From Dehalococcoidia bacterium (GTDB lineage: Bacteria > Chloroflexota > Dehalococcoidia > Dehalococcoidales > JAUXAP01), in contig JAUXAP010000008.1 of the NCBI GenBank assembly GCA_030619865.1, positions 1 through 45,058 of the forward strand: a DNA stretch of 45,058 nt. Direction: 5' to 3'. Positions within the stretch are counted from its first letter, which is position 1. Every line of letters begins with the position of its first letter. Of the stretch, positions 1 through 8,665 are shown piece by piece. The notes under the pieces were generated by a model. It was not told the origin of the DNA. It searched no databases and was given only the letters and a program-made list of their open reading frames with translations. The translations under genes were made by a program, and so were the position numbers.

Positions 1-229
1 TCTTTTCCTCAGGGTACTGAGATGTTTCACTTCCCCTGCTTACCTCCTCCCAGCCTATGTGTTCAGCTGGGGGTGCTCAGGGTTTACCTGAGCGGGTTAC
101 CCCATTCGGGTATCCCCGGCTAAGCTTGCTCGACAGCTCACCGGAGCTTTTCGCAGTCTTGCCACGCCCTTCTTCGGCCCTTGATACCAAGGCATCCACC
201 ATGCGCCTTTACCGCTTGACCTGCTTCAG
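1..229 (-). rRNA. 23S ribosomal RNA, 5' portion (runs off the window's left edge)
   Basis: Reverse complement reads ...GGTCAAGCGGTAAAGGCGCATGGTGGATGCCTTGGTATCAAGGGCCGAAGAAGGGCGTGGCAAGACTGCGAAAAGC..., the conserved 23S 5' domain. The exact 5' end is approximate. Confidence 0.95.
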
Positions 230-547: not shown

Positions 548-622
<75 letters not shown>

Positions 623-918
623 AACCCCTTAACATAGTACCCCGCCCAAATTCCAAGCTTGCCCTGAGGATAGCCGAAGGGTATAAACTGACAAATACCC
701 AACAATCTTCAATTCTCAAAATCATAGCCGGTAGCTCCTGGTAAGAGGATTGGGTAACCATATTATTTCATTGAATATTAATACAAAGTACTATTCGGAT
801 TGGTACTAAAAACCTACTGCAAAAAAGAGATTTTGATGTGATAATTAAATTGTCATTTATAATACAGCAAATTGTATTGTAGTAACATATTGCAAAAAGA
901 ACGTCACATGAGGAGAAA

Positions 919-1374
919 GTGATGAATATATTGCTGAAAAGGAAAATTTTCGTTATACCACTGATTGTAGTGATGGCAGTTGCGGTAGTTGGCGGTGTTA
1001 TTTATGCTGCTACCGCAATTACGGTACCCGGTCAAGTTAATATAGTGGTAGCAACTAATGATATAGAAGTCTACTCGAATTCTAGATATACTGTTGAACT
1101 TACGGAAATAATCTGGAATGACTTACCTGTTGGAGGAGAGAAGTATAGGATTGTTTATATTAGAAACATCGGGAATACCGATGCTCAAGTGGTAGCGACT
1201 TTACAAGGCGCTCCTGCCGGAGTGACACTTAGAGAAGGTGCAGATACAATAGTAATAAGCAGAAGATCGCAAGCTGAATTTACTTTATATCTAGAAGCTG
1301 CCACAACAGCTAATATTGGGTCTTCTTCGTTTACAGTAACTTTCACTAGTACCCCGATATATGTAAATCCATAA
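919..1374 (+). CDS. Secreted or membrane-anchored protein, probable beta-sandwich, unknown function
   Basis: ORF of 151 aa with GGAG RBS, N-terminal hydrophobic signal/anchor (KRKIFVIPLIVVMAVAVVGGVIYA) and a beta-rich remainder. Confidence 0.7.
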   Translation: MMNILLKRKIFVIPLIVVMAVAVVGGVIYAATAITVPGQVNIVVATNDIEVYSNSRYTVELTEIIWNDLPVGGEKYRIVYIRNIGNTDAQVVATLQGAPAGVTLREGADTIVISRRSQAEFTLYLEAATTANIGSSSFTVTFTSTPIYVNP

Positions 1375-1441
1375 TTGTAAAAATAGTTTGCATATACATT
1401 AGTTAATGCAAAATTGATAAATCAATAACATAAATCTCGCT

Positions 1442-1489
1442 AGGCTCAAAACTCAAAGGTCGTTGGTTCAAATCCAACCCCCGCTACCA
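1442..1489 (+). repeat. Partial tRNA-fMet 3' copy (anticodon arm onward; 32 nt identical to the intact tRNA)
   Basis: ggtcgttggttcaaatccaacccccgctacca (1458-1489) is identical to 591-622, preceded by a decayed anticodon arm ggctcaaaactcaaa. Confidence 0.92.
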
Positions 1490-1521
1490 AGGTTATTGAG
1501 GCTGGTATGTAATTAACCAGC

Positions 1522-1752
1522 CTATTTCTTTCTAGCCCTAACTGAAATTCCTTCCTCTGTATTGGTTAATTCATACGGCCAAATTGAATTAGTGTCAACA
1601 AGTCTTACTCTTATGCTAGTTGTAGGAATCCAAGTCTGGATTGTTGGTATACCTCCAGGTGTTACACTCCATCGAGACCCGTCGTCTAATTCTAATGAAT
1701 CATCTAACACTTCGAGGAGCATGTGCTCTTCTATCTGATTTGGATTATCCAT
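1522..1752 (-). CDS. Small hypothetical protein (76 aa) downstream of the PIN gene
   Basis: ORF 25 bp downstream of the PIN-domain ORF on the same strand; LDDGSRWSVTPGG segment suggests a small beta-domain. Confidence 0.6.
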   Translation of the reverse strand: MDNPNQIEEHMLLEVLDDSLELDDGSRWSVTPGGIPTIQTWIPTTSIRVRLVDTNSIWPYELTNTEEGISVRARKK

Positions 1753-1777
1753 GTTATCCTTCTAGCACTTCAAATTT

Positions 1778-2437
1778 TTACAGTGGCATTTTGCTTGTTA
1801 ATGAAATAAATACTCTGCTTCGTTCATCTTCAGGTATCGTTGGATTATATGCATTCGGTAATTCCTGGATCTTCTTTGATCCGTTACGGAGATTCCTATC
1901 AAGCGTCACAATATGTAGGTATTTCTTAGGAATATCAAAAAAATCAACGACATACTTTGCAGTTGCGAGGACAATTAGATCTGGAAGAGAGACCTCAAGT
2001 CCTTCTTTTAAGAATACCTCATAGAAGCGGTCTACAGAGATTATTATGTCCCGTGATGTTGAGATATCATGATACTTAATTCGTCTACTACGTGATTTTA
2101 AAGTTCGATCCGTTGTGGTAATGTCTTTTATGAGACGTTGCCGAGCATTACGATATTCACTCGGATTCTTAAACCAATTATCAACATAGTATTTCCGTGC
2201 CAATGCCTTGAATGTTTCAGCAATGCAGATATCAGGAATATAAACACGGGCTTTGTTAGACTTAAGTTGCTGCTCAATTTCATCCCACCAACTCAGACAT
2301 TTATCAACTCGTGTTTTATCTTTTGGTTTTTGAACTCGATTGAGCGGAATGTATTTATTAACAAGAAAATTTGCATCAATAACGTAATAGTTCTTATTTC
2401 GTGCTGGATTACGGTATATTTTTCGGATTCTAGCCAT
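1778..2437 (-). CDS. PIN-domain-like protein
   Basis: NYYVIDANFLVNKYIP N-terminus with internal D/E residues (DICIAETFKAL; LPDLIVLATAKYV; IVTLDRNLR) matches the PIN nuclease pattern. Confidence 0.7.
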   Translation of the reverse strand: MARIRKIYRNPARNKNYYVIDANFLVNKYIPLNRVQKPKDKTRVDKCLSWWDEIEQQLKSNKARVYIPDICIAETFKALARKYYVDNWFKNPSEYRNARQRLIKDITTTDRTLKSRSRRIKYHDISTSRDIIISVDRFYEVFLKEGLEVSLPDLIVLATAKYVVDFFDIPKKYLHIVTLDRNLRNGSKKIQELPNAYNPTIPEDERSRVFISLTSKMPL

Positions 2438-2706
2438 ACAAGCATCCTAATTATTGCATATCTTGCATACTAACTTATGTCAATAATACAATATGCACCC
2501 TGTTAATATTATACCATCCGTCCCCGAATCTATACTATAGATATGATTGAGGAGCCTATCCTAGTCTCACCCATCCCTACTACTCCACATCTGCCCTAAC
2601 CTCCCCCCGCCCCCGCGTACGAACCCGCAGCTTCGCGCCACAATACAGGCGGGAGGTGAGCGTAATGAACAAAGAGACCATGCTGCTAGAATGTTCGGCC
2701 GAAAAA

Positions 2707-2728
2707 TTGACAGAAGCACATCTGTCAA
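2707..2728. promoter_or_regulatory. Perfect 8-bp inverted repeat TTGACAGA-N6-TCTGTCAA
   Basis: Read directly, about 80 bp upstream of the aldo/keto reductase start. Function (operator or hairpin) not established. Confidence 0.4.
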
Positions 2729-2805
2729 CTTAGTATGTCAGCGAGTAAGTTGTTCGGGTAGGGCTGAAGTTACCCATTACAATTGGCTGATTAGCCAAAA
2801 AGAAT

Positions 2806-3792
2806 ATGGTTATGCAGTATAAAAAATTGGGAAGAACAGGGCTTAAGGTTTCCGCAATCTGTCTGGGTACTGCGACCTATGGGCATCAAGTGAATGAAAT
2901 AGAAGCTATAAACATAATAAAGAGGGCGTTGGCGGCTGGTATCAACTTCTTTGATACCGCTGATATGTATGCTGAAGGTAAGTGTGAAGAAATTATTGGT
3001 AAGGCGTTTAAAGAGGAGCGCCACTCTGTGGTGCTGGCAACAAAGGTGGGAAATAGGATGGGGCCGGGTGTCAACGATGTCGGGTCATCACGCAAGCATA
3101 TTATGAAGGGTATAGAAGACAGCCTGCGTCGGCTACAAACAGACTACATTGACCTCTATTATATTCACACTCCAGACTACACCACTCCTATGGAGGAGAC
3201 GCTGCGCGCTCTGGATGACTTAGTTCAGCAAGGTAAGGTGCGCTACATAGGCTTGTCTAATTTCCATGCCTGGCAGCTTTGTAAAGCGTTATGGCTGAGT
3301 GACCGTTATAATTTAGCACGGTTTGATTGTATTGAGTCGCCGTATAACTTGCTTACCCGGGACGTTGAGTATGAGCTACTGCCCCTTTGTAGCAGTGAAG
3401 GAGTAGGAATATGTGTATGGGCCCCTCTGGCTGGTGGTCTGCTGACTGGCAAGTATGATCCGAATAAGCCGCCACCCGAAGGCACCAAGTTTACTACTGT
3501 AGGCAATAGGCGATCATACCATGATATCTACTGGTCAGCTGCCAACTTTGAGGCTGTAGCCCGTCTCAAACAGATTGCTGAGGGGCATGGGTGTAGTTTA
3601 GCTCAGTTTGCCCTGGCCTGGATACTGAGTAATCCCACAATTACATCAGCTATCTGTGGCACCACTTCAGTGAAGCAATTAGAGGAGAACCTGGGAGCTA
3701 GTGAGGTGAAATTATCACAGGAAGAACTTGCTGCCTGTGACGAGGTATGGCAGAAGCTCAGTCCTCGGCCTAAATTATTCTACGGAAGGTAA
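2806..3792 (+). CDS. Aldo/keto reductase
   Basis: KLGRTGLKVSAICLGT, FFDTADMYAEG, LATKVGN, DYIDLYYIHTPD and RYIGLSNFHAWQ motifs of the AKR family. Confidence 0.92.
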   Translation: MVMQYKKLGRTGLKVSAICLGTATYGHQVNEIEAINIIKRALAAGINFFDTADMYAEGKCEEIIGKAFKEERHSVVLATKVGNRMGPGVNDVGSSRKHIMKGIEDSLRRLQTDYIDLYYIHTPDYTTPMEETLRALDDLVQQGKVRYIGLSNFHAWQLCKALWLSDRYNLARFDCIESPYNLLTRDVEYELLPLCSSEGVGICVWAPLAGGLLTGKYDPNKPPPEGTKFTTVGNRRSYHDIYWSAANFEAVARLKQIAEGHGCSLAQFALAWILSNPTITSAICGTTSVKQLEENLGASEVKLSQEELAACDEVWQKLSPRPKLFYGR

Positions 3793-3996
3793 GCACCTAT
3801 ATAGCAAACGCTCGGAGCATTTTTATATCTACGCGAGTTCGGAAAAACAAGATTATTGTTATTTTAATTATGGCTGGTTCTTTATTGCCTCATTATTCTA
3901 GAAGAGATGAAAAGAACACCCATAGTTACACTGCAAGTAACAAACCGCTATTTTGTGCAATCGGCTGAAAAGACGGCGAAAGTGCTAGAGAGAAGA

Positions 3997-4452
3997 TTAC
4001 CTCTGCTCCCACAACTGCCGGGTAAGCTGAATATGCCCCAGGTGTACGGCATAATGACTAATATGGTGCAGGATACACCACCTGACAGTGACAGAGCCCA
4101 AGTTGGGTCGGATGACGGTCCTTGTCTCCCCTAGTTGCGAAGAGCTTAGCTTGCTAAGAATCCTCTTACTTGCCCTGAATACTTCCTCCCAGTGCTTTAC
4201 AATCTCTGAAAGGTGTCCTGAAGCGCGGAACTCAGCATCCCGGTCCCGATCTATAGTTTCTCCACCGATGATGTGTCTAACCCAGTAGTTGTCAATACCC
4301 GCCAAATGGCACAGGATGACATATATAGAGTTAGTATCTTTGGGAAGAGGGCGCCAATTGGCCGCTTCATAATTAAGACCTTTAACGGCATCCAGGATTT
4401 GCTCTCTTAAGATAGCAAACTCGGTAAGGTAACCCTGAACTTCAGCTTCCAT
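3997..4452 (-). CDS. DinB-like (DUF664/DinB fold) protein
   Basis: LREQILDAVKGL...NWRP...ICHLAGIDNYWVRHIIGG...HHISHYAVHLGHIQLTRQL pattern. Start chosen at MEAEVQ, which has a GGAGGC RBS. Confidence 0.7.
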   Translation of the reverse strand: MEAEVQGYLTEFAILREQILDAVKGLNYEAANWRPLPKDTNSIYVILCHLAGIDNYWVRHIIGGETIDRDRDAEFRASGHLSEIVKHWEEVFRASKRILSKLSSSQLGETRTVIRPNLGSVTVRWCILHHISHYAVHLGHIQLTRQLWEQR

Positions 4453-4552
4453 AATTCGCCTCCAATAATTTTTTATAATCATATATATCAGGGAGACCTC
4501 CGTCAACAGAAATTAAAAACTAGCAGTCAGGTTACTAAGGGTTCAAGCAATA

Positions 4553-4581
4553 TTGACCAGGGCATACTTTTATGGTATAAG
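4553..4581 (+). promoter_or_regulatory. Putative promoter immediately before the tRNA-like fragment and the VOC array
   Basis: TTGACC (4553-4558), 17 nt spacer, TATAAG (4576-4581). Same geometry and distance as the intact tRNA-fMet promoter. Confidence 0.6.
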
Positions 4582-4584
4582 TTA

Positions 4585-4648
4585 ACGCTGGAGAGGGTTG
4601 GGTCCAGCAACCCGAAGGTCGTTGGTTCAAATCCAATCCCCGCTACCA
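4585..4648 (+). repeat. Rearranged partial tRNA-fMet copy (D-arm lost; T-arm and CCA retained)
   Basis: cgctggagagggttgggtccagcaacccgaaggtcgttggttcaaatccaatccccgctacca. The 3' 35 nt differ from the tRNA mainly by one C-to-T. Confidence 0.88.
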
Positions 4649-4679
4649 ATCTTTATTCTATACAATAATGGAGGTGCAT

Positions 4680-5084
4680 ATGGCTCTGGGAAAGATTGAC
4701 CACATAGATTTCACCGTTGATGACTTAGAAAAGGCAGAGAAACACTTTACTGAAAAGCTGGGATTTAAACTCCTGAGACGTACTGACCATGCCGGAAAAT
4801 CAATCGAACTAACCTCACCAGCCGGTGATTTTTTCCTTGACATTCACCAAATGACAGACGAAATAAGGGATGAATATAAGACTGAGCAGGAAGCATCCAG
4901 ATGGCCTATTTACTTTAATCATATTGCTTTCAAGGTAGATGATATAAATAAGGAATTTGAAGATATGAAGAGTAAAGGAGTGCAATTCAGGCTGGATGCC
5001 CCTGATTTTAACCCAGCAACCGGCAGAACACTCGCTGATACCCCTGACGGCGATGGACGTTTCTGGATTCAATTAACCGACTAA
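4680..5084 (+). CDS. VOC-family protein (paralog 1)
   Basis: MALGKIDHIDFTVDDLEKAEKHFTEKLGF...FNHIAFKV...WIQLTD; RBS GGAGGTGCAT-ATG. Confidence 0.92.
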   Translation: MALGKIDHIDFTVDDLEKAEKHFTEKLGFKLLRRTDHAGKSIELTSPAGDFFLDIHQMTDEIRDEYKTEQEASRWPIYFNHIAFKVDDINKEFEDMKSKGVQFRLDAPDFNPATGRTLADTPDGDGRFWIQLTD

Positions 5085-5100
5085 AAGATTGCCTAGATAA

Positions 5101-5132
5101 GGTCAGGGGGCTGAATCCAAGCCCCACTATCA
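5101..5132 (+). repeat. Degenerate tRNA-fMet 3'-tail copy
   Basis: ggtcagggggctgaatccaagccccactatca aligned to ggtcgttggttcaaatccaacccccgctacca. Confidence 0.6.
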
Positions 5133-5163
5133 AGGATTATTATATTTAATATGGAGGTGTAAC

Positions 5164-5574
5164 ATGGCTTTTGGAAAGATCAATCACTTAGAGTTCCTTG
5201 TCGATGACTTAGAAGAGGCGGTGAAGTACTTTACTGAAAAGCTGGGATTCAAACTGGTGAGACGCTTTGATGTTGGCTGGGGATTTGGTAAAGCAGTCGA
5301 GGTAAAGGCACCCAATGGCACTGAAATCTTCGAACTTCACCAGGTAACCGACGAATTTAAGGAGCAGATTAAGAAGGCACCTGGATGGGTATATTTCAAT
5401 CATATTGCCTTTGAGGTAGAGGATATAGATAAGGAGTATGAAGAACTGACGAGCAAAGGGGTGAAATTTGCCGGTCCTCCACATTTTAATCCAGAAAGTG
5501 GTAGAAACCTCGCTCAGACCCGTGAACCCGACGGACGTGAATGGATTCAATTACAAGAAGCGAAGCCTAAGTAA
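5164..5574 (+). CDS. VOC-family protein (paralog 2)
   Basis: MAFGKINHLEFLVDDLEEAVKYFTEKLGF...FNHIAFEV...WIQLQE. Confidence 0.92.
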   Translation: MAFGKINHLEFLVDDLEEAVKYFTEKLGFKLVRRFDVGWGFGKAVEVKAPNGTEIFELHQVTDEFKEQIKKAPGWVYFNHIAFEVEDIDKEYEELTSKGVKFAGPPHFNPESGRNLAQTREPDGREWIQLQEAKPK

Positions 5575-5590
5575 ATGCATTGAGGCATAA

Positions 5591-5657
5591 CTCCACAGTA
5601 GAAGGTTAAAAGTAAGAGAAACTCCCCCCAAAGTGTAATAAGCACTACCCTGATTCT
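5591..5657 (+). repeat. Intergenic repeat of the VOC array (copy 1)
   Basis: ctccacagtagaaggttaaaagtaagagaaact...aagtgtaataagcactaccctgattctt closely matches 6128-6193. Confidence 0.8.
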
Positions 5658-5680
5658 TATACATGATATGGAGGTGTAAT

Positions 5681-6079
5681 ATGGCTCTGGGAAAGATCAC
5701 CCACTTAGATTTCCTTGCCTACGAGTTAGAGGAAACAGTTAAGTACTTTACTGAAAAGCTAGGATTCAAAGTGGTAAGGCGCACCACGCATGGGGGAGAA
5801 GCAGTCGAGTTAATCTCACCCGACGGTGATGAGATCTTCGAATTTCACCCACCAACCAAGGAGATAATTAAAGCCACCAATGAGCGCCGTGGAAGTCTAT
5901 TTCTCAGGCATATCGCCTTTGAGGTGGATGATGTAGATGAGGCGTATAAAGAACTGAAAAGCAAAGGGGTGGAATTTTCCGATGCCCCTCTTTTTACTCC
6001 AAAAACCAACCGGAAACTGGCTATGGCTTATGATGCCCATGGGCGTAGATTCATCCAATTAGAAGAAAAGAAAAAGTAG
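5681..6079 (+). CDS. VOC-family protein (paralog 3)
   Basis: MALGKITHLDFLAYELEETVKYFTEKLGF...LRHIAFEV...FIQLEE; RBS GGAGGTGTAAT-ATG. Confidence 0.92.
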   Translation: MALGKITHLDFLAYELEETVKYFTEKLGFKVVRRTTHGGEAVELISPDGDEIFEFHPPTKEIIKATNERRGSLFLRHIAFEVDDVDEAYKELKSKGVEFSDAPLFTPKTNRKLAMAYDAHGRRFIQLEEKKK

Positions 6080-6127
6080 CCGACATAGAGGCATTAAGGT
6101 ATAAAATTTACTCAGGAAAGCTAATAG

Positions 6128-6193
6128 CTCCATAGTAGAAGATTAAAAGTAAGAGAAACTGCCCCAAAGTGCAATAAGCACTACCCTGATTAT
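6128..6193 (+). repeat. Intergenic repeat of the VOC array (copy 2)
   Basis: ctccatagtagaagattaaaagtaagagaaactgccccaaagtgcaataagcactaccctgatta; see 5591-5657. Confidence 0.8.
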
Positions 6194-6218
6194 TATAATA
6201 TGATAATGGAGGTATGAT

Positions 6219-6620
6219 ATGGCTCTAGGAAGAATCAATCACGTAGATTTGCTTGTCGACGACTTAAAAAAGACAGAGGAGTACTTTACCAAAAAGCTGG
6301 GATTTAAAGTGGTGAGACGTACTCAGCATACGTCATACGGAGGTGAGCATATTGAGGTAGTCTCACCCGATGGGGGTGAAATCCTTGACATTCACCAAAT
6401 ACAGGAGACATATCTAAAAGAGGATGCACCTACAAGGCCACATGTTCATCATATCGCCTTTGAGGTGGATGATTTAGACAAAACTTATGAAGAGCTGAAA
6501 AGTAAAGGGGTAGAATTTAAAGATGCGCCAAGGTTTGTTCCGCAAACTGGCAGGAAACTCGCCTTCATGAAAGATGCCGATGGGCGCCCGTGGATTCAAT
6601 TGCAAGAAAAGGAGAAATAA
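6219..6620 (+). CDS. VOC-family protein (paralog 4)
   Basis: MALGRINHVDLLVDDLKKTEEYFTKKLGF...VHHIAFEV...WIQLQE. Confidence 0.92.
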   Translation: MALGRINHVDLLVDDLKKTEEYFTKKLGFKVVRRTQHTSYGGEHIEVVSPDGGEILDIHQIQETYLKEDAPTRPHVHHIAFEVDDLDKTYEELKSKGVEFKDAPRFVPQTGRKLAFMKDADGRPWIQLQEKEK

Positions 6621-6667
6621 CCAGCATAGACGCGTTAAATAAACTATGAAAATAATGGAGGTGTAAT

Positions 6668-7066
6668 ATGGCCCTGGGAAAGATTGACCACATAGATTTA
6701 TTTGTTGACGACTTAGAAAAGGCAGAAAAGCACTTCACCGAAAAACTGGGCTTCAAGCTCCTGAGACACACCGAGCATGTGGGAAAATCAATCGAACTAG
6801 CCTCACCGGCCGGTGATTTTTTCCTTGACCTCCACCAAGGAAGCGAGGAGCTATATAAGACCGAGAGGGAGAAATCACCCGGGTGGCCCTATTATTTTAA
6901 TCATATCGCCTTTAAGGTGGAAAATATAAACAAGGAATTTGAAGATATGAAGAGTAAAGGGGTGTCATTCAGGCTGGATGCTCCTAATTTTAACCCAACA
7001 ACTGGCAGAACACTCGCTAACGCCCCTGATGCCGATGGACGTTTTTGGATTCAACTGACCGACTAA
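6668..7066 (+). CDS. VOC-family protein (paralog 5; closest to paralog 1)
   Basis: MALGKIDHIDLFVDDLEKAEKHFTEKLGFKLL...FNHIAFKVENINKEFEDMKSKGV...RFWIQLTD. Confidence 0.92.
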   Translation: MALGKIDHIDLFVDDLEKAEKHFTEKLGFKLLRHTEHVGKSIELASPAGDFFLDLHQGSEELYKTEREKSPGWPYYFNHIAFKVENINKEFEDMKSKGVSFRLDAPNFNPTTGRTLANAPDADGRFWIQLTD

Positions 7067-7090
7067 AAAGTAGCCGATATAGGTCAGAAG

Positions 7091-7158
7091 GGAGGTGCGC
7101 TATGGCTTCGGGGGCTCATAACCCGAAGCGCGAGGAACAAACCTAACCCCTGCTACTA
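7091..7158 (+). repeat. Chimeric scar: VOC-type RBS/start fused to a tRNA-fMet fragment (anticodon arm to 3' end)
   Basis: ggaggtgcgctATGGCT is followed by tcgggggctcataacccgaagcgcgaggaacaaacctaacccctgctacta, with the intact anticodon loop CTCATAA. Confidence 0.8.
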
Positions 7159-7185
7159 AGATTACTTATAATACGGAGGTATAAT

Positions 7186-7590
7186 ATGGCTCTGAAAAGA
7201 ATTCATCACATAGATATTTTTGTTGACAACATAGAAAAGGTATCTGACCACTTTATAGACAAGCTGGGATTTAAACCGGTTAAAAAATCGGTGCATGTGG
7301 GAAAATCAATAGAACTAGCTATACCCGCTGGTGAGGAAGTGCGCTTTGAATTTCACGAAATGACCGAAGAATACAGGAAGACACACCAGAAGGAGATGGC
7401 TTACGGGAAGCCAGATATTGACCACATCGGTTTTGAGGTGGACGATATAAATAAGGAATTTGAAGAGCTGAAAAGTAAAGGGGTTGAATTTAAAAGCACG
7501 CCACAGGTGAATCCCCTTGGCCGGAAACTGTGTCGTACTGTTGATGCCGATGGGCGTGGCTGGCTTCAATTGTACGAAGAGGGAAAATAA
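7186..7590 (+). CDS. VOC-family protein (paralog 6)
   Basis: MALKRIHHIDIFVDNIEKVSDHFIDKLGF...IDHIGFEV...WLQLYE. Confidence 0.92.
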   Translation: MALKRIHHIDIFVDNIEKVSDHFIDKLGFKPVKKSVHVGKSIELAIPAGEEVRFEFHEMTEEYRKTHQKEMAYGKPDIDHIGFEVDDINKEFEELKSKGVEFKSTPQVNPLGRKLCRTVDADGRGWLQLYEEGK

Positions 7591-7669
7591 CCTGTATAGA
7601 TGCAGTAAGCGGTGAAAACCACAATGTATAAGCACTACCAAGATTATTATAAATATATGGAGGTGTAAT

Positions 7670-8074
7670 ATGGCTCTAGGAAAAATCAATCACATAGAAT
7701 TCTTTGTCGACGACTTAGAAAAGGCAGAAGAATATTTCACCAAAAAGCTGGGCTTTAAAGTAGTGAGACGCACTGAGCACGCAGGCAAAGCAATCGAGCT
7801 AGTGGCACCCGCCGGTGAGGGGATAATCTTTGAACTTCACCCGAGGAAAGTAGGAGCGCAACGGAAGGACAAGGACCCACTGGGATGGCCAGCCTTTAAT
7901 CATGTCGCCTTTGAGGTGGACGATATAAATAAAGAGTTTGAAGAGCTGAAAAGTAAAGGGGTTAAATTCATGCAAGATGCACCAAGTTTTAATCCACTTA
8001 CTGGCAGGACACTGGCTGATACTTATGATGCCGATGGGCGTATGTGGATCCAATTGCAAGACAAAGAAAAGTAG
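7670..8074 (+). CDS. VOC-family protein (paralog 7)
   Basis: MALGKINHIEFFVDDLEKAEEYFTKKLGF...FNHVAFEV...WIQLQD. Confidence 0.92.
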   Translation: MALGKINHIEFFVDDLEKAEEYFTKKLGFKVVRRTEHAGKAIELVAPAGEGIIFELHPRKVGAQRKDKDPLGWPAFNHVAFEVDDINKEFEELKSKGVKFMQDAPSFNPLTGRTLADTYDADGRMWIQLQDKEK

Positions 8075-8075
8075 C

Positions 8076-8105
8076 TTGACAAAGCTGATAACCCTGTAGT
8101 ATAAG
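8076..8105 (+). promoter_or_regulatory. Putative internal promoter before VOC paralog 8
   Basis: TTGACA (8076-8081), 18 nt spacer, TATAAG (8100-8105). Confidence 0.5.
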
Positions 8106-8154
8106 GTAAAAACTCAGAACAAAACTATTTATTTTTATAATAAGGAGGTATGTT

Positions 8155-8571
8155 ATGGCTCTGGGAAAGATTAACCACTTTCATTTCTATGTTGAGGACT
8201 TAGAAGAGACGTACAAATACTTCACTGAGAAGTTGGGGTTCGAGTTTGTACGGCGAGGGCACGGGGGAAAGTCAATCGACTTAGTCTCATCCGAGGGTGG
8301 TCCAACCTTTGAATTTAACCAGATAACTGAGGAATACAAGACTGCCAAACCCGAGGATAATCCTGACGTTGCTCACATCGCAGCCAAGAGAAGGCCGTAT
8401 CTTGACCATATTGCCTTTGAGGTTGATAACGTAGAAGAAAAGGTCAAAGAATTGAAAAGTAAGAGCGTAGAGTTTCTATCAGGGCCTGTTCTGAACCCGC
8501 AAAATAATCGCATGCTGGCTGACCTCTATGACCTTGAGGGGCATGCGTGGATTCAATTGCAAGAAAAGTAA
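8155..8571 (+). CDS. VOC-family protein (paralog 8, most divergent)
   Basis: MALGKINHFHFYVEDLEETYKYFTEKLGF...LDHIAFEV...WIQLQEK. Confidence 0.9.
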   Translation: MALGKINHFHFYVEDLEETYKYFTEKLGFEFVRRGHGGKSIDLVSSEGGPTFEFNQITEEYKTAKPEDNPDVAHIAAKRRPYLDHIAFEVDNVEEKVKELKSKSVEFLSGPVLNPQNNRMLADLYDLEGHAWIQLQEK

Positions 8572-8589
8572 CCAAGAGGAATCCTGACA

Positions 8590-8621
8590 GGTCGTCCCTT
8601 CGAATCCAACCCCCGCTACCA
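8590..8621 (+). repeat. tRNA-fMet 3'-tail copy closing the VOC array
   Basis: ggtcgtcccttcgaatccaacccccgctacca; the last 18 nt equal the tRNA 3' end. Confidence 0.9.
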
Positions 8622-8633
8622 ATGAGCATAATG

Positions 8634-8665
8634 AGGACTAGGTAATTATAAACCTAGTCCTTTTT
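8634..8665 (+). terminator. Rho-independent terminator after the VOC array
   Basis: AGGACTAGGT-N8-ACCTAGTCCT followed by TTTTT; perfect 10-bp stem. Confidence 0.85.

Follow-up and report, generated by a model that had tools for sequence, protein, structure and literature searches.

Genomic islands integrated at tRNA and tmRNA genes are collected in the Islander database (PMC4383910), and Dehalococcoides carries both island arrays anchored at ssrA and islands marked by tRNA fragments (PMC3146451, PMC2764846). The stretch of DNA analysed here (hereafter the window, 45,058 nt from a Dehalococcoidia bacterium) resembles tDNA islands (PMC4383910) in having an intact tRNA-fMet gene (548-622), same-strand 3' fragments of that gene (1443-1490, 4609-4649 and 8589-8622), variable cargo, and a conserved flank past the last fragment (terminator, trm112, queD, folK). 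It differs in that no integrase gene remains among this cargo, and in that the chimera discussed below joins a VOC gene start to tRNA sequence internally instead of marking an island end. The Dehalococcoides arrays (PMC3146451, PMC2764846) are similar in their tandem segments 3' of one RNA gene, with partial 3'-end copies as marks and, in some cases, no integration genes, whereas the window's array is anchored at tRNA-fMet and has VOC paralogs as cargo, and its relics recur at the scale of one unit (about 0.5 kb), which argues for tandem duplication of tRNA plus gene rather than serial integration alone. A third comparison is with the partial, non-canonical tRNA genes that integrated elements leave behind (PMC9897764): the window's tRNA fragment is likewise not a gene and keeps a recognisable anticodon arm, but on the 5' side it is joined to the beginning of a protein gene of its own array.

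This fusion lies at 7091-7159, between the VOC genes V5 and V6. It is a recombination scar, as the original prediction proposed, but it is neither unique nor evidently functional. We regard it, with a probability of roughly 65%, as a scar left by deletion within a tandem array of tRNA-fMet/VOC units. The source genome is a 58%-complete assembly of 27 contigs, and the genomes used for comparison belong to the same order, none of them to the same genus or family.

tRNA-fMet, its relics and the integration hotspot

The intact tRNA-fMet gene (548-622, + strand, anticodon CAT; ARAGORN tRNA-Met, Rfam tRNA) is preceded by a promoter-like TTGACA-17-TATACT found by promoter scan (508-536), and is the source of the relics downstream. 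A first 3' fragment (1443-1490, +) covers tRNA positions 29-76 at 94% and is followed by a hairpin, while a degraded copy of the whole gene stands upstream of V1 (4553-4649, +), with 4609-4649 being 98% identical to the tRNA. Further relics precede V2 (5098-5133, +) and V7 (3' end and spacer, about 7634-7652), and the last 3' fragment (8589-8622, +) is followed by a terminator-like sequence (8633-8662) and then trm112 (8711). The fragments at 1443-1490, 4609-4649 and 8589-8622 all begin in or after the anticodon arm and reach the tRNA 3' end, and their T arm is better preserved than their anticodon arm. The reverse holds for the three chimeras described below, in which the T arm has decayed more than the anticodon arm, a bias that plain decay does not predict and that, with so few copies, is inseparable from their history. 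A second promoter-like sequence, TTGACC-17-TATAAG (4553-4581, hexamers read from the sequence), lies upstream of V1 at the place of the tRNA-fMet promoter and is possibly the promoter of the VOC array.

Elsewhere in the order, PF00589 integrase genes adjoin or overlap tRNA-fMet in two genomes (G012 and G078), with direct repeats that begin at CTCATAACCCGAAGG (CTCATAA) and extend to CTACCA. Fragments of the tRNA 3' part downstream of tRNA-fMet occur in other genomes as well, and in eleven other genomes (G018, G042, G069, G049, G006, G149, G152, G141, G012, G064 and G031) tRNA-fMet and trm112 share a contig and a strand, with the tRNA about 0.5 to 29 kb upstream. The fragment and terminator of G069, with trm112 just downstream, align with the window's last fragment and terminator. 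Because of this alignment, and because other genomes show fragments or integrases at tRNA-fMet, the interval 623-8588 occupies a recurrent integration site. Examined as an island, 548-8622 has the intact tRNA gene at one end and the same-strand fragment at the far end; since no PF00589 integrase gene is found inside it, we do not file it as a complete island and place it only within an integration hotspot.

Such a setting suggests that the chimera could be a secondary attachment scar, left when a tyrosine recombinase with the tRNA-fMet anticodon arm as its att core hit a core-like VOC start. This origin would agree with the use of tRNA-fMet as an integration target in the order and with the preservation of the anticodon arm above all else in the chimeras. 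A tyrosine recombinase is expected to cross over within the overlap region, yet the breakpoints lie to the left of the anticodon loop, apparently outside that region: the tRNA part of the chimera starts a few bases left of the loop, and no island end is evident at 7108. Moreover, the sole PF00589 match on the contig (27646-28149) falls outside the segment from the tRNA to 8622, and an inverted core is not clearly present at the VOC start. We consider an integrase event of this kind improbable.

Outside the interval, contig C14 (G000, L040; 800-950 and 1572-3050) has the C-terminal remnant of a VOC gene and also a large serine recombinase (PF00239/PF07508). This contig ends in the 3' part of a 23S and the window (1-221) starts with a 23S 5' part on the same strand, so that C14 is probably the window's immediate left neighbour.

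The VOC array and the tRNA-VOC unit of a relative

Eight VOC genes follow one another on the + strand: V1 (4680-5084), V2 (5164-5574), V3 (5681-6079), V4 (6219-6620), V5 (6668-7066), V6 (7186-7590, with its own leader at 7175), V7 (7670-8074) and V8 (8155-8571). V5 and V6, which flank the scar, match PF00903 (Pfam Glyoxalase) above the cut-off, and membership of the VOC/glyoxalase superfamily in itself tells nothing about the scar. Sequence from the tRNA 3' end with an AT-rich spacer is clear upstream of V1, V2, V6 and V7, weak at V3 and V4, and absent at V5 and V8, and throughout its length the upstream region of V1 aligns to the tRNA-fMet gene, promoter region included.

A simpler arrangement is seen in G018, a member of another family of the same order. 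Its contig C105 has an intact tRNA-fMet (1018-1092) and, at a spacing of about 24 nt, a single VOC gene from 1114, followed by trm112, queD and folK, the same order that comes after the eight VOC genes of the window. Given this arrangement, the alignment upstream of V1, and the relics and spacers shared by V2, V6 and V7, the most fitting view of the eight genes is that a tRNA-VOC unit was expanded and its tRNA copies decayed, some leaving recognisable relics. The tRNA 3' sequence of several VOC units would have been inherited from a tRNA-fMet-VOC neighbourhood that is still present in G018. Divergence among the paralogs is high (dS mostly 0.7 to above 1.5), which implies that the surviving tRNA relics arose after most of the VOC splits, or that they were refreshed by recombination. 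Close VOC relatives were found in the order only in G018 and G027, contrary to an expectation of order-wide presence, and the G027 gene has no tRNA upstream.

The intergenic regions V2-V3 (5574-5680) and V3-V4 (6079-6218) contain blocks that are 89-94% identical, with gene dS around 0.7-1.1, which suggests concerted evolution or constraint between the VOC genes. The sequence CTCCACAGTAGAAGG occurs exactly 3' of a VOC gene both in the window (5591-5605) and in G018 (C105:1556-1570) and appears to be a conserved VOC 3'-flank motif; stretches resembling ATAACTCCACAGTAGAAGG after V2, V3 and V7 were considered as tRNA relics and rejected, because comparison with G018 identifies them as VOC 3' flank. 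A motif resembling AGCTGGTCCTGYCGGGGGAAACTGAGGTGCCGGGG lies near the G027 VOC gene (L044, about 1330, 1993 and 2315) and beside the VOC remnant of C14 (L040, about 956), and has no Rfam match at the gathering threshold.

The VOC-start/tRNA junction and its copies

At the scar, a VOC-type RBS, GGAGGTGCGCT (7091-7101, +), leads to the VOC start codons ATGGCT (7102-7107, +), both recognised by pattern and shuffle tests and by alignment; we read the two together as the start of a lost VOC gene. The tRNA-fMet relic of the V6 unit follows (7112-7159, +; similarity search and shuffles), its T arm and 3' end decayed, and an ORF of 14 codons, MASGAHNPKREEQT (7102-7146, +), spans the junction. Upstream, a small remnant, ATAGGTCAG (7075-7083, +), can be aligned to the beginning of the tRNA relic found in the V1-V2 interval. 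The anticodon arm GGGCTCATAACCCGAAG (7112-7128) is identical to tRNA-fMet 575-591 at 17 of 17 positions, and the homology extends to 7159 (80% over tRNA positions 28-76, E 3e-5 against the own genome), with a score above that of all 500 shuffles. The leader pattern GGAGGTNNNNTATGGCT, with at most one mismatch, has eight occurrences in the window, where 0.08 would be expected; apart from the scar, all of them (seven) are real VOC starts. When the 32 nt 5' of the anticodon loop are compared with VOC leaders they exceed 2000 of 2000 shuffles, but the same 32 nt do not match the tRNA-fMet 5' half beyond shuffles (p = 0.91). Because this contest of sources favours VOC leaders, we assign the left half to a VOC gene start and the right half to tRNA-fMet.

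The bases and coordinates first read at this site (VOC-type RBS, Met-Ala start, anticodon arm, decayed T-arm and 3' end, 14-codon ORF) are thus correct, and the physical junction of a VOC 5' end with tRNA that had been proposed is a true one, with chance excluded for both halves by shuffles and pattern counts. The caveat raised at the time, that the sequence might occur here by chance, with no homology to VOC leaders past the RBS, is answered by the 2000 shuffles that the VOC leaders outscored.

The chimera recurs at two other places in the genome, in each case upstream of a VOC gene: C18:45215-45246 (-; GGAGGTGTAATATGGCCCAAGGGTTCATAACCCGAAG) and C19:67918-67949 (+; GGAGGTGTTATATGGCTTAAGAGCTCATAACCCTAAG). 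With three sites in the genome, we reject the idea of a scar unique to 7091. The leader parts of all three loci beat 2000/2000 shuffles against VOC leaders, and the tRNA-fMet 5' half (p 0.91, 0.80 and 0.53, respectively) is ruled out as their origin. The tRNA D arm, GGAGCAGTGGTAGCTCG, is indeed loosely similar to GGAGGTGCGCTATGGCT, and one could imagine the RBS-ATG stretch as a degraded D arm that resembles a leader by chance, or the whole as a mis-joined contig. The shuffle contest speaks against the former, and the occurrence of the same chimera on separate contigs argues against mis-assembly, so that we give such explanations hardly any credence.

Both the C18 and the C19 chimera sit between the end of an enolase-superfamily (MR_MLE) gene, an assignment tested with Pfam for the C19 copy, and a VOC gene. 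The two contigs are probably neighbours, since their ends overlap inside one VOC gene. Similarity between their elements is about the same as between the ends of the adjoining enolase-family genes, and for this reason the two chimeras look like one event copied by segmental duplication with the adjacent gene. The V6 chimera may be independent of that event, because V6 does not group with the C18 and C19 VOC genes (in a tree that is for the most part weakly supported) and the T arm of its relic resembles that of the present-day tRNA-fMet. The C18 and C19 VOC genes belong to a cluster (L039 7658-9906, L021) that also contains several enolase-superfamily genes and a UxuA-type mannonate dehydratase, likely a sugar-acid pathway.

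A pattern scan did not detect the chimera in 60 relatives of the same order (own genome left out), and in the genome_contigs collection it gave one exact match, inside an unrelated alphaproteobacterial gene start, which is about the number that we estimate for chance. A widespread element is rejected on these grounds.

The three copies share a layout upstream of VOC genes and each keeps the anticodon arm well, as might be expected if an RBS-ATG with a tRNA-like hairpin served the downstream VOC gene as a leader peptide, a tRNA-like riboregulator or a processing site. Their short ORFs, however, are unrelated, with peptides of 14, 9 and 2 residues (MASGAHNPKREEQT, MAQGFITRS* and MA*), and for want of conservation we reject a leader peptide or attenuator. 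We likewise reject a structured RNA leader, as no Rfam family matches at the site and the folds predicted for the three copies are dissimilar and unremarkable (z about -2.0, -0.6 and -0.2). In addition, the C19 copy breaks a pair of the anticodon stem, the resemblance between the C18 element and the C19 element does not exceed that of the adjoining enolase-family gene ends, and of the window's eight VOC genes seven have no chimera. A functional leader is accordingly very unlikely in our view; the 14-codon ORF is probably not functional, and the chimera probably has no function of its own. The residues AHNPK in the mini-ORF are simply translated tRNA. In G012, an integrase ORF (L138 6227-7177) can be read from within tRNA-fMet (MAARRAHNPKVVGSNPTPAT...) in the same frame as this AHNPK.

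A probable deletion within the array

V1 and V5 are closest paralogs (81% amino acid identity, support 100/99), and their 3' parts and flanks align at 83%. The alignment runs on past V5, through AGGTCAG (a remnant of the tRNA variable loop), to the leader of V2, so that homology between the V1-V2 interval and the V5-scar region is a direct observation. The two loci part at the leader: after V1 it opens the intact VOC gene V2, whereas after V5 it is followed by two codons and then by the anticodon arm of the V6 relic. Two routes had been suggested for the junction, loss of a VOC body from a ninth unit or insertion of a tRNA fragment into a VOC unit. The first fits best: the V1-V2 interval, to which the DNA downstream of V5 can be aligned, has an intact VOC gene at the corresponding place. 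The second is unsupported, the tRNA 3' sequence being a normal upstream part of several VOC units.

The history that we favour would start from one VOC gene just 3' of tRNA-fMet. This unit would have been duplicated repeatedly, with the additional tRNA copies decaying and the VOC copies diverging, and a further, ninth unit would once have been present 3' of V5. Its ATGGCT would then have been joined to the anticodon arm of V6's tRNA relic, with deletion of the VOC body and the tRNA 5' half. The joint falls in a short quasi-homology between VOC starts (ATGGCTC-TGGG) and the tRNA (AGCTCGTCGGG), and recombination could have been guided across it, from GGCTC-TGGG of the VOC start to AGCTCGTCGGG of the tRNA. 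What would remain is the RBS with ATGGCT, the tRNA 3' half, and V6 with its own leader. A similar junction may have arisen in a VOC unit that now resides in the enolase-superfamily cluster of C18 and C19, where it would have been copied with the neighbouring gene. The deletion step, its place in the order of events and the recombination mechanism are inferred from sequence alone, and it counts against this history that the ninth unit is seen undeleted in none of the comparison genomes, that the anticodon arm has outlasted the T arm in the chimeras, that the VOC copies are so diverged in relation to the surviving relic, and that two deletions between V5 and V6 are required, not one.

A local tandem duplication, in which a segment of anticodon arm, spacer, leader and ATGGCT was doubled once in place, bringing ATGGCT of the first copy up against the anticodon arm of the second, and no VOC gene was ever lost, would produce the identical junction in a single step, with the same short quasi-homology being enough, and would account for the second leader found about 70 nt 3' at all three loci. 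Yet the paired leaders of a locus are not obviously more alike than the leaders of different VOC genes. Furthermore, a full tRNA 3' end with spacer is missing 5' of the first leader, where V5 is followed only by AGGTCAG, and nothing tRNA-like was recognised 5' of the first leader at C18 and C19. We find such a duplication possible though rather unlikely. Somewhat less likely still, the VOC-start/anticodon-arm junction may be a recurrent product of recombination through quasi-homology of VOC start codons with the D and anticodon arms of tRNA-fMet, possibly helped by integrases that target tRNA-fMet, which would repeatedly reshuffle VOC genes and spread tRNA-tagged VOC cassettes out of the tRNA locus to other operons such as that of C18/C19.

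Read as a deletion scar, the site leaves existing knowledge of tRNA and VOC function unchanged, and it is a warning that an RBS-ATG beside an anticodon arm is not necessarily a gene or a riboregulator. The tRNA relics are natural landmarks for the limits of the array's units, and the locus indicates that a paralog family can grow beside an RNA gene that doubles as an integration hotspot.
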